A DNA stretch of 49,508 bases. It comes from Microbacteriaceae bacterium. GTDB lineage: Bacteria > Actinomycetota > Actinomycetes > Actinomycetales > Microbacteriaceae. Within the stretch, counting starts at the first letter, position 1; the number at the start of each line of letters is the position of its first letter. The translations under genes were made by a program, and so were the position numbers. The stretch covers positions 1-49,508 of the forward strand of contig CANGNZ010000005.1 in the NCBI GenBank assembly GCA_947455435.1, in the 5' to 3' direction. This document shows, piece after piece, positions 5,846 to 41,716 of the stretch. The notes under the pieces were generated by a model, which saw nothing but the letters and a program-made list of their open reading frames with translations, did not search any database and was not told where the DNA came from.

Positions 5846-6328
5846 TTATCCATAGGTGTCGCGAGGGCCTCTTCCGGGCACCGATCTCGGGCCCTTCTTC
5901 CAGCTCGGAGCGGCTGGGCCGAGCATCTTCAAGGTCGATATGCCGAGGTCGGGGTAGGCGTCATTGAGGCGTTCCAAAATGGTGCCTTGCATAAGGCGCA
6001 ACTGGGTTGCCCAGGCCGTCGATTTGCATCGAATAGTTAGAGTGCCGTCGATTAGGGTTTCGGGAATCGAGCTTTCGGCTGTCTGCTCGCCAACCAATTC
6101 GGGCCACCGGTTAAACAGATCCGCCTCGGCTAATTCGCCATTCCAGCTGAACTCGCTGAACAGTGCATCGACCGACGCCAGGGCAGTGACCGGGTCACGG
6201 CCACCCTCGAAAGGTTTCGAACCCCCGCGTTCTTTGCGCTCCTTGATGCGTTTGGCATCGCGACTCAATCGGCCGGTGACTGCCTCGCGCATGCGCCAAT
6301 AAAACTCTTGCGCAAAATCACTCGCCAT
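5846..6328 (-). CDS. DUF721 / DciA-like protein
   Basis: This 160-residue protein belongs to the DUF721 family by sequence pattern (FNRWPELVGEQTA..., then RCKSTAWATQLRLMQ) and by location between recF and gyrB. The best-studied family member, DciA, loads or stimulates the replicative helicase DnaB in bacteria lacking DnaC or DnaI; actinobacterial members are thought to do the same. The N-terminal third is basic and probably disordered, and the conserved KH-like domain covers roughly residues 60-140. Its ATG overlaps the end of recF by 11 nt, so the two are translationally coupled. DnaB is encoded in the same window at 26.35 kb. Confidence 0.85.
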   Translation of the reverse strand: MASDFAQEFYWRMREAVTGRLSRDAKRIKERKERGGSKPFEGGRDPVTALASVDALFSEFSWNGELAEADLFNRWPELVGEQTAESSIPETLIDGTLTIRCKSTAWATQLRLMQGTILERLNDAYPDLGISTLKMLGPAAPSWKKGPRSVPGRGPRDTYG

Positions 6329-9563: not shown

Positions 9564-9887
9564 AATGTCCCCTGTCTTTAGTGGCTTGGCCTGAACGTCA
9601 ATCTTGCCACAAACGGCCAAAGGTTCAGTAATTCGTTATGGGTGAGCTATTTAATCTTTTCTTTTTAACAACATCATTAACCCTCGTGGAAACTGTGGAC
9701 AAATCCATGTCTCTCATAGTTTTTATGGAAACTACAACGGTGAAAGATGTATACACAACTGTGTGTAAGTCTGTGGATAACCCTTAGGCCTGTGGATTAG
9801 ATTTTTGGAGTACACAGCCCGTTTACCGCTTATTCACTGGTTTAGAAGAGTTATCCCCAGTTATCCACAGGGTTGTGAACAGGTGGA
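9564..9887. other. oriC: Origin of replication (oriC), dnaA-dnaN intergenic part
   Basis: The 324-nt gap holds several DnaA boxes. Perfect matches to TTATNCACA are at 9861-9869 (TTATCCACA) and 9772-9780 (reverse). TTGTCCACA-type is at 9694-9702 (reverse). One-mismatch boxes are at 9760-9768, 9791-9799, 9830-9838 and 9851-9859. An AT-rich tract at about 9636-9682 (long T and A runs) is a candidate unwinding element. Boxes occur in both orientations with irregular spacing. The position between dnaA and dnaN and the divergence of gene direction around dnaA/rpmH support oriC. Confidence 0.85.
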
Positions 9888-11297: not shown

Positions 11298-11329
11298 TCG
11301 GGTTCCCCTTGCGATTCATGAGTCAATAG

Positions 11330-11391
11330 TTTTCCACAGCCTATGCGACTTGTGCACACCTGTGGATAACTAGATTTTGGGTTGTGGAAAA
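11330..11391. promoter_or_regulatory. DnaA boxes upstream of dnaA
   Basis: Within 100 nt of the dnaA start are TTTTCCACA (11330-11338), TTGTGCACA (11350-11358), a perfect TGTGGATAA (11361-11369) and TGTGGAAAA (11383-11391). Such boxes at the dnaA promoter usually serve autoregulation and may form the second half of a split origin. Confidence 0.65.
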
Positions 11392-11527
11392 CCTCGCGGG
11401 TTAATGCCACTGAGGTATTCAACCGAATATGCGAATGCAATTGCAAATCGTATCGGCGTGTCTAAACCAAACTGTTACAAATCCCTATGCGATGCTTTTG
11501 GACCCGAAAAATATTTAGGCAAAGAAC

Positions 11528-11557
11528 TTGACCCAGAGGGCTTGCATGCCATAGGTT
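11528..11557 (+). promoter_or_regulatory. Probable rpmH promoter
   Basis: TTGACC (11528-11533), an 18-nt spacer and TAGGTT (11552-11557) predict a start near 11564, about 92 nt upstream of rpmH. The rest of 11392-11655 shows no convincing gene. Confidence 0.45.
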
Positions 11558-11655
11558 TAACAGGTTGCTTTGCCTTGGATCGGCGAAGCTGCTAAATCGG
11601 CGGAATCATCCGCTACCAACCAAGATCCAACAATCAAGCTTTGGAGTGATCACCA

Positions 11656-11793
11656 ATGAGCAAGCGTACCTTTCAGCCGAACAACCGTCGTCGTGCAAAG
11701 ACCCACGGTTTCCGTCTCCGCATGAAGACCCGTGCCGGCCGTGCCATCTTGGCAGCGCGTCGTCGCAAGGGCCGTGTAGAGCTTTCGGCCTAA
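11656..11793 (+). CDS. rpmH: 50S ribosomal protein L34
   Basis: This 45-residue, highly basic protein begins [19 protein letters not shown] and has the L34 pattern of RTRAGRAIL followed by an RRRKGR cluster. It is a structural protein of the large subunit. GGAG lies 11 nt upstream of the ATG. It is the first gene of the rightward group next to the origin (rpmH-rnpA-yidD-yidC), a placement shared by most bacteria. Confidence 0.98.
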
Positions 11794-11805
11794 ACAACTA
11801 ACCTG

Positions 11806-25553: not shown

Positions 25554-26006
25554 ATGTCGAAGGTTATTCTGACCAACGAGGTCTCCGGCCTAGGTTCTGC
25601 AGGCGACGTCGTTGAAGTAAAGAACGGTTACGCTCGTAACTTCTTGATCCCGAAGGGCTTTGCAGTCGTTTGGAGCAAGGGTGGCGAGAAGCAGGTTGAG
25701 TCGATTCGCGCAGGCCGCGAAGCACGTGCACTTGCAACCGTTGAAGAGGCACAGACCCTCAAGGCTCGCCTTGAAGAGAAGCCAATCCGCATCGCCGTAA
25801 AGGCCGGTAAAGAGGGTCGCCTATTCGGCGCCGTCAAGACCGCCGACGTCGTTGCAGCTATCGTTGCCGCTGGTCTTCCAGAGGTCGACAAGCGCAAGGT
25901 TGAGTTTGTTGCTCCAGTTCGCGTAACTGGCAACCACGAAGCCACCGTTCGCCTACACGGCGACGTAGTTGCTACCGTAACCCTTCAGGTTGTGGCTGCA
26001 AAGTAA
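25554..26006 (+). CDS. rplI: 50S ribosomal protein L9
   Basis: A 150-residue L9 with the N-terminal RNA-binding domain ([37 protein letters not shown]), a long connecting helix, and the C-terminal domain ([15 protein letters not shown]). Last gene of the rpsF operon, 13 nt after rpsR, and closed by a strong terminator. Confidence 0.97.
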
Positions 26007-26021
26007 CCATATCCACTAGGG

Positions 26022-26055
26022 CGGCGCCGGGTTTCGACCCGGCGCCGTTTCTTTT
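26022..26055 (+). terminator. Rho-independent terminator after rplI
   Basis: CGGCGCCGGGT and ACCCGGCGCCG form a perfect 11-bp stem with a TTCG loop, followed by TTTCTTTT. It ends 5 nt before the first DnaA box of the dnaB upstream region. Confidence 0.93.
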
Positions 26056-26059
26056 ACCC

Positions 26060-26282
26060 TGTGGATAACTTGTGTATAACTAGGGTTTCAGCGTGTCTAA
26101 TTACGGCGCGTCGCAAACTCTAAGGTCGAAGTTTAGACTTTGCAGAAATAGTTTTTACACAGGCTGCAACCCTTGTATTCATTGGGGGAGCAGTTAGTTA
26201 TGCACAAATTGTCCACAAGTTGTCCACAGGTTATGCACAGTTCGAACGGCGTGTCTCCACAGTTCTCCACAATCTATCCACA
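26060..26282. promoter_or_regulatory. Phased DnaA-box array upstream of dnaB
   Basis: Two perfect reverse boxes lie at 26060-26068 (TGTGGATAA) and 26071-26079 (TGTGTATAA), 11 bp apart. After a 26153-26161 TTTTACACA come forward boxes at 26198 (TTATGCACA), 26209 and 26220 (TTGTCCACA), 26231 (TTATGCACA), then GTCTCCACA at 26253, TTCTCCACA at 26263 and CTATCCACA at 26274. Starts are 11, 11, 11, 22, 10 and 11 bp apart, all on one strand, one helical face. The 345-nt gap 26007-26351 holds no gene. Role unknown: DnaA-controlled dnaB promoter, DnaA reservoir or an origin element. Confidence 0.85.
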
Positions 26283-26351
26283 GGCTCGGTTCGCTTTTAA
26301 AGTGTCGATGGTGAATGCTAGACAAGTCTTAGTGCGCAATAGGAGGTAGCC

Positions 26352-41239: not shown

Positions 41240-41269
41240 TTTGTCGGTGGTGCGACCTATCGTTTACGG

Positions 41270-41716
41270 ATGGGTTTTCTAAGGTTCTTCAGCTTCGAGC
41301 ACGCCGACTTCAAAATAACGACCGAGCGTCTTGGTATCGCAATCTTTTGCGCAATTCTCACGGTCGGTTCAACCTTCGCCCCTGTCATCAACACTCCCCA
41401 CATCTCGCTAACCGACTACCCGTCTGACTTATCAGACAGCCGCGGGTTTTTGCTGCTGGTCGAGGTATTGAGCATCGGGTTCAATATGATCAGCTTGCGC
41501 AATTGGGCAGGCGCGTGGCTAGGAGTGACTCTGTTCACGCTGATTGTTGACTTGTATAGGTCTTTCGAAATCATCGATGCAATCAATGCGTACCTTGGCC
41601 AAGATCCCTCACTTCATTACACGCAGCACGCCGGCTTGGCGTGGGGCTGGTGGCTCATTATTCTGGGCCCAGCCATCATGACCTTGGTCTGGGTGCTCGA
41701 TTACATTCGCGATTAG
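41270..41716 (+). CDS. Membrane protein of unknown function
   Basis: This 148-residue protein has four hydrophobic segments near 22-40, 62-78, 82-98 and 123-143. A TATCGT 6 nt upstream of the ATG could be the -10 of a leaderless transcript. It resembles the preceding gene in length and topology but not obviously in sequence. No family recognised. Confidence 0.65.
   Translation: MGFLRFFSFEHADFKITTERLGIAIFCAILTVGSTFAPVINTPHISLTDYPSDLSDSRGFLLLVEVLSIGFNMISLRNWAGAWLGVTLFTLIVDLYRSFEIIDAINAYLGQDPSLHYTQHAGLAWGWWLIILGPAIMTLVWVLDYIRD

Follow-up and report, generated by a model that had tools for sequence, protein, structure and literature searches.

Binding of DnaA upstream of dnaB, the gene of the replicative helicase, has been described in mycobacteria: According to the accessible sections of a report from 2020, it was detected in vitro for Mycobacterium tuberculosis and by ChIP for M. 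smegmatis, and dnaB is under-expressed in M. tuberculosis with a mutant DnaA whose binding upstream of the gene is reduced (PMC7738170). The same sections cite Caulobacter as a precedent for DnaA binding at this place (Hottes 2005, via PMC7738170). Because the binding has thus been in print since 2020, a coupling of DnaA to dnaB is not new, and the earlier note on the DNA studied here was mistaken in presenting a link between helicase supply and DnaA as such. In Escherichia coli, DnaA prefers pairs of boxes that are 2–3 bp apart, as stated in the available part of PMC11317965. Furthermore, a LexA/RecA-independent class of promoters has the published consensus tTGTCRgtg - 8 nt - TannnT (PMC5656591) or, for the same class, TGTCGG-10N-TA-3N-T (PMC8151990). 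In mitomycin-treated M. tuberculosis, dnaB is called partly PafBC-dependent in the latter paper; since the drug still led to over-expression of the gene with both RecA and PafBC down, PafBC is not its sole input in this organism (PMC8151990).

Against this background, we analyzed a stretch of 49,508 nucleotides (the window) within a 1.35 Mb draft genome that is assigned to the Microbacteriaceae by its dnaB: The nearest named records are uncultured Micrococcales and Microbacteriaceae bins, some of them under the name Aquiluna, and the best match is 90 percent identical at DnaB. From 26060 to 26282, i.e., within 223 bp, the gap between rplI and dnaB contains nine DnaA boxes (Table 1), if boxes are called with at most one mismatch to TTWTNCACA, whereas 100 composition-preserving shuffles of the window yielded a maximum of three in any 223 bp. 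The dense, ordered array that the earlier note had seen before dnaB is therefore real, and at least two boxes lie near the dnaB start, above chance, as is expected of a DnaA-regulated promoter. Within the forward array, the spacing is 11 bp except for a step of 32 bp from 26231 to 26263. The step would divide into 22 + 10 if the weak 9-mer at 26253 were included; this 9-mer, listed as a box before, has two mismatches and was not called by any pattern applied, whereas the six other forward boxes of that list were all recovered. The two reverse boxes had been described as perfect, 11 bp apart, and directly behind the rplI terminator: R1 is exact and the spacing holds, but R2 is one base off, and a terminator consensus scan called nothing at the inverted repeat (26023–26046) that is visible by eye.

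Table 1. Features of the window; distances are given to the promoter motif upstream of dnaB.
Feature	Position	Strand	Basis
dnaA-dnaN gap, probable oriC	9621..9887		boxes; weakest sampled 40-mer of window
Gap upstream of dnaA, four DnaA boxes	11298..11805		box pattern
rplI, ribosomal protein L9, directly upstream gene	25554..26006	+	Pfam PF03948, PF01281
G+C-rich inverted repeat with T-rich tail, likely rplI terminator	26023..26046	+	read by eye
DnaA box R1, TTATCCACA, exact consensus, 243 bp before motif	26060..26068	-	
DnaA box R2, TTATACACA, one base off consensus, 11 bp from R1	26071..26079	-	
Conserved inverted repeat, genus consensus about AACCYTNAGG...GTTTAGGGTTT	26116..26141		alignment
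DnaA box F0, TTTTACACA, 150 bp before motif	26153..26161	+	
DnaA box F1, TTATGCACA	26198..26206	+	
DnaA box F2, TTGTCCACA	26209..26217	+	
DnaA box F3, TTGTCCACA, 83 bp before motif	26220..26228	+	
DnaA box F4, TTATGCACA, 72 bp before motif	26231..26239	+	
CGGCGTGTC element between F4 and F5	26247..26255	+	alignments, GGCGTKT counts
Weak DnaA-box-like 9-mer GTCTCCACA, two mismatches to TTATCCACA	26253..26261	+	read by eye
DnaA box F5, TTCTCCACA, exactly 40 bp from box start to TGTC of motif	26263..26271	+	
DnaA box F6, CTATCCACA, starts 29 bp before TGTC of motif	26274..26282	+	
PafBC/RecA-NDp type promoter motif TGTCGATG-N8-TAGACA	26303..26324	+	9/11 consensus positions
Ribosome binding site AGGAGG	26341..26346	+	read by eye
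dnaB, replicative helicase, 455 aa	26352..27719	+	Pfam PF03796, PF00772

In the whole draft genome, tandem box pairs at 11 bp with at most one mismatch are confined to the rplI-dnaB gap (five of five); at two mismatches, four further pairs appear, three of them outside this gap. Likewise, seven perfect TTNTNCACA direct pairs no more than 30 bp apart were found, five in the rplI-dnaB gap and two before dnaA. The boxes of the dnaA-dnaN gap had been called fewer and irregular in comparison: They do lie in mixed orientations, and perfect TTWTNCACA matches are indeed fewer (two versus five in the rplI-dnaB gap), but with up to one mismatch both gaps contain nine.

A search of relatives, which the earlier note had suggested, retrieved the array and its 11-bp spacing both in the genus and in other genera of the class. 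A strong dnaB match was obtained in 34 of 36 genus genomes (own genome included), G015 and G022 giving weak matches only and being treated as lacking dnaB. Among the 33 genomes with enough upstream DNA, L012 with its 132 bp being left out, the minimum is four distinct boxes upstream of dnaB, where one of the two genus box counts used a looser pattern; another locus, L218, had no upstream sequence. In a closed relative of the same genus (G006, 1,430,433 bp), the densest TTNTNCACA cluster lies upstream of dnaB with seven in 300 bp, followed by the dnaA-dnaN gap with five and by at most two at every other place listed. For 80 named loci of the Microbacteriaceae and Micrococcaceae, a set that seems to share genomes with the genus set (e.g., L039 and L012), we counted on average 5.46 box matches in up to 500 bp upstream of dnaB and 0.083 in other 500-bp stretches, palindromic sites being counted twice on both sides of the comparison; at least one box is present upstream of dnaB in 80 of 80. 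The first genus count doubles palindromic sites as well, and the second genus count and the class, helical-phase, and register counts merge them. Palindromic boxes of this kind, TTGTGCACAA, readable on both strands, occur upstream of dnaB in L050, L051, and L032.

Of 98 class genomes from other genera, 89 carry one or more boxes in the 600 bp preceding dnaB, and 65 carry two or more, compared with 6 and 1, respectively, in the next 600 bp, which served as control; nine of the 98 have no box in the first 600 bp by the pattern used. A member with a box exists in 39 of the 42 families covered, a member with two in 29. Beyond the class but within the phylum, one box within 600 bp was seen in 9 of 40 and two in 3 of 40; the link between dnaB and the boxes therefore looks limited to the class. 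Moreover, when 7-mers of the class regions upstream of dnaB are ranked by over-representation, each of the top three overlaps the DnaA box, the leading one being TCCACAG (85 of 98 regions versus 6.4 in shuffles), and boxes diverge less than other bases in nine of nine pairs of relatives, with the boxes defined in one of the two sequences. They also remain with dnaB in 60 of 64 other-genus loci in which rplI was undetected, that is, without a tblastn match within 1200 bp.

The distances between successive forward-strand boxes cluster at 11–12, 22–23, 32, 43–46, and 55–56 bp. For a period of 11.0 bp, this corresponds to a mean cosine of 0.83 in the genus (32 loci, 119 distances; largest null 0.20) and of 0.78 in other genera (127 loci, 152 distances; largest null 0.19), based on 2000 nulls with distances blurred by 6 bp and with loci taken as independent though relatives share ancestry. 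The same period is seen at the genus dnaA promoter (0.77) and oriC (0.73; 20 loci and 31 distances each), and among genus relatives with full upstream DNA the gap upstream of dnaA holds two to five boxes, for which steps of 11, 22, and 32 bp are common. Consequently, the 11-bp ruler is not special to dnaB: DnaA sites of this group generally follow it. A copy of CGGCGTGTCT is present in the dnaA upstream gap of the own genome and of three others.

At dnaB, the boxes additionally keep a fixed register with promoter elements. The promoter motif of the window departs from the consensus at the G after R and at the last T. In 30 of 32 genus genomes, a box lies exactly 40 bp before TGTC, and further boxes precede TGTC by 83 bp (24/32), by 72 bp (19/32), and by 28 or 29 bp (21/32); farther upstream, a box is located 148–151 bp before the promoter motif in 17 and a reverse box 242–244 bp before it in 21 of the 32. 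These counts comprise the genus genomes with TGTC-N12-TA near dnaB, and L037, which is devoid of the motif, is excluded. The distance from the motif to dnaB varies in the 32 genomes between 49 and 110 bp, measured to the start of the protein match, which is not always the start codon. A second set, L052–L118, consists of Microbacteriaceae and Micrococcaceae and includes L058, apparently of the own genus and looking the same as L033. Here, 39 of 56 loci have a TTG 16 bp after the start of the last box, and 31 of 56 have TANNNT 40 bp after it, with a TTG-TANNNT spacer of 18 bp and with 11 of the 67 loci excluded for want of an anchor; the PafBC-type motif is found at variable distance from the array, 47 cases yielding 17 different values. 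Such a fixed box position relative to promoter elements is what a DnaA-regulated promoter would be expected to display. A sigma-70 scan called no promoter in the rplI-dnaB gap. In both sets, the proximal boxes lie just upstream of promoter-like sequence, and their placement is consequently activator-like.

Two further elements of the gap are conserved. Upstream of dnaB, GGCGTKT occurs in 30 of 33 regions from the genus, in 60 of 67 from the L052–L118 set, and in 34 of 98 from the rest of the class (control: 9 of 98); in the form GGCGTTT or GGCGTGT, it precedes the last box by 27 bp in 48 of 56 L052–L118 loci. We rejected GGCGTKT as an element shared by dnaA and dnaB or as a general partner of DnaA sites, as only 5 of the 22 regions upstream of dnaA in the genus contain it. 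WhiA was considered as a possible link for GGCGTKT. The second element, the inverted repeat at 26116–26141, is located upstream of F0 in the window, occurs in its consensus form once in the G006 genome, and resembles a binding site for a further dimeric factor.

The PafBC-type motif is itself conserved to a graded extent. At least 8 of 11 positions are matched in 25 of 33 genus regions (3.0 percent of shuffles), in 52 of 67 L052–L118 regions (1.4 percent), and in 38 of 98 other class regions (2.2 percent); fewer than eight are matched in 60 of the 98 class regions, only seven in 7 of the 33 genus members, and one of the 33 has no candidate upstream of dnaB. Genome-wide counts with one mismatch amount to 34 versus 16 in the control for G000 and to 29 versus 34 for G006; with enrichment over control unclear, we rejected the derivation of a PafBC regulon from the motif alone. 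A pafB-pafC-like pair is present: Contig C30 encodes two adjacent WYL-WCX proteins, the second with HTH_PafC, and neither of them matches NCBIfam at E 0.001. In view of its similarity to the consensus, the dnaB promoter motif is likely a PafBC element that would provide a second input from DNA damage. Exact motifs were also observed elsewhere. One, at 41242–41263, stands directly upstream of an ORF (41270–41716) with no NCBIfam or Pfam match, a possible damage-response gene; another (L381, G000:C4:5367) is situated between hisC and a divergent 221-aa ORF, which could be lexA, judging from its place; a third (L382, G006:C1:1267132) lies beside nucS and is directed away from it.

We consider it likely that the rplI-dnaB gap is a control region of dnaB, in which a cooperative DnaA array probably activates transcription and a PafBC-type element contributes a second input. 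As read from the arrangement of the sites, DnaA would bind the array as a cooperative oligomer on one face of the DNA, with six forward boxes in 11-bp register and with the outlying forward box and the reverse pair as anchors. F5 and F6 would thereby place DnaA directly behind RNA polymerase on its upstream side; the promoter, for which we take the motif, has a weak −35 region. Plentiful free DnaA, probably in its ATP-bound state, would then increase dnaB transcription, so that helicase supply would track initiation capacity, and PafBC acting on its element in the same promoter would add control by DNA damage. Among the three options offered by the earlier note, a DnaA-controlled dnaB promoter is the one best supported, namely by the conservation of the array, its register with the promoter motif, and the DnaA binding in mycobacteria.

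The sign of regulation is not fixed by sequence alone, and the DnaA oligomer might conversely silence dnaB until initiation consumes DnaA, in the manner of the several E. coli promoters that are named as repressed by DnaA in the introduction of PMC11317965. F5 and F6, however, are positioned upstream of the promoter elements and not over them, and the M. tuberculosis mutant with diminished binding at dnaB, as described in the accessible sections of PMC7738170, under-expresses the gene. We therefore regard repression as unlikely and activation as the probable effect.

Alternatively, the array could be a titration or nucleotide-switch site akin to datA or DARS that lowers free DnaA and thus times initiation, with dnaB as a mere neighbor. 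It is the largest box cluster of G006, and its proximity to oriC implies early replication; a Streptomyces box cluster near oriC reportedly restricts initiation (Smulczyk-Krawczyszyn 2006). The distance between dnaA and dnaB, computed for 24 of the 29 genomes in which dnaA was searched, amounts to 267 kb in G046, which has one box, and lies between about 16 and 130 kb in the 23 others; in one genome the two genes are on different contigs. Since the two genes are this close in all but one of the 24, promoter control and near-origin titration are incompletely separated. Titration, however, requires no base-exact lock to the promoter motif, as seen in 30 of 32 genus genomes, or to the TTG −35, as seen in 39 of 56 L052–L118 loci; besides, the boxes stay beside dnaB in the 60 of 64 loci with rplI undetected, and fewer than two boxes are found at dnaB in 33 of 98 other-genus class genomes. 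Because the boxes are in register with promoter motifs, we consider titration improbable as the main role, and it may be a secondary role or a side effect of the array.

It is less probable still that DnaA acts as a roadblock or insulator behind the rplI terminator, preventing read-through of the ribosomal operon into dnaB. The reverse pair directly follows the rplI inverted repeat, and the introduction of PMC11317965 refers to obstruction of polymerase by DnaA, but the dnaB-proximal boxes hold their register with the promoter motif and the boxes persist in those 60 of 64 loci without detected rplI upstream. For the array as a whole this explanation is very doubtful; for the reverse pair, read-through blocking could account.

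For an origin at the dnaB gap, duplex stability and GC skew were evaluated. In the window, no sampled 40-mer is weaker than the weakest of the dnaA-dnaN gap, and 0.09 percent are weaker than that of the rplI-dnaB gap (26118–26157); in G006, the corresponding values are 0.00 percent (rounded) and 0.85 percent. Stability thus favors the dnaA-dnaN gap, although for the window the contrast is not sharp. The raw cumulative GC skew of G006, a check put forward in the earlier note, forms a local trough close to dnaB, at about 1415 kb, where it is slightly lower than at dnaA; as fourfold-site skew follows gene strand and the dnaA and dnaB sites, 15–18 kb apart, are too close for it to separate, skew is indecisive on the origin. 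A second or part origin, the last option of the earlier note, is highly improbable in spite of the dense and ordered boxes, the skew trough, and the fairly weak 40-mer, since the weakest 40-mers are in the dnaA-dnaN gap in both genomes checked and G038 keeps five boxes at dnaB about 130 kb from dnaA. Elsewhere in the window, a gene at 5846–6328 that adjoins gyrB scores 129 bits with the DUF721 model NF002871, below the cut-off of 246; we take DUF721 to be the family of the helicase operator DciA.

To our knowledge, the matching of helicase supply to initiation has been little studied. With its fixed boxes, spacing, and motif distance, the locus could serve as a test bed for same-face DnaA oligomerization in gene regulation, apart from origin melting. 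It also points to a DnaA site outside oriC that most of the class has retained, and suggests a single promoter at which DnaA converges with the DNA-damage activator PafBC. More tentatively, and with considerable doubt on our part, the dnaB regions may form a class-wide switch, in which a same-face DnaA oligomer, the 11-bp ruler, and the promoter register are joined in many lineages by PafBC and a GGCGTKT-binding factor. In that case, both initiation capacity and fork damage would determine how much DnaB is made, and the dnaB promoter would read out the oligomer state of DnaA away from oriC. Searches of open-access literature, outside of which most subscription journals lie, brought up no description of the phased array, of its register with the promoter, or of its occurrence throughout the class, and the evenly spaced box layout across much of the class looks new.

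Among known systems, E. coli datA and DARS and the near-oriC clusters of Streptomyces resemble the array in being box clusters outside oriC. A register with promoter elements is not known to be a feature of these clusters. In the available part of PMC11317965, E. coli nrdA, polA, and purH, genes of replication or nucleotide supply, are preceded by paired boxes 2–3 bp apart; dnaB is absent from the box pairs tabled there, whereas the dnaB array described here comprises four consecutive boxes and two more in one 11-bp register. The element TGTCRG-N10-TANNNT is shared with the PafBC/RecA-NDp promoters of mycobacteria, as far as the excerpts of PMC5656591, PMC8151990, and PMC6789036 describe them; its fixed distance from a DnaA array, which holds in the own genus, is not seen for the mycobacterial promoters in these excerpts. 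In the DnaA regulon of Caulobacter crescentus, which belongs to a different phylum, DnaA is bound upstream of dnaB, as cited in PMC7738170. In M. tuberculosis (Rv0057 region) and M. smegmatis, the counterpart is a DnaA site upstream of the replicative helicase gene. The accessible sections of PMC7738170 give no array, spacing, or promoter register for this site, and DnaA binding was demonstrated there by pull-down and ChIP, whereas the present array is known from its sequence. Of the five DnaA-bound regions listed in the same sections, three, i.e., oriC, rpmH-dnaA, and dnaB, match the three box-rich places of the window (PMC7738170).
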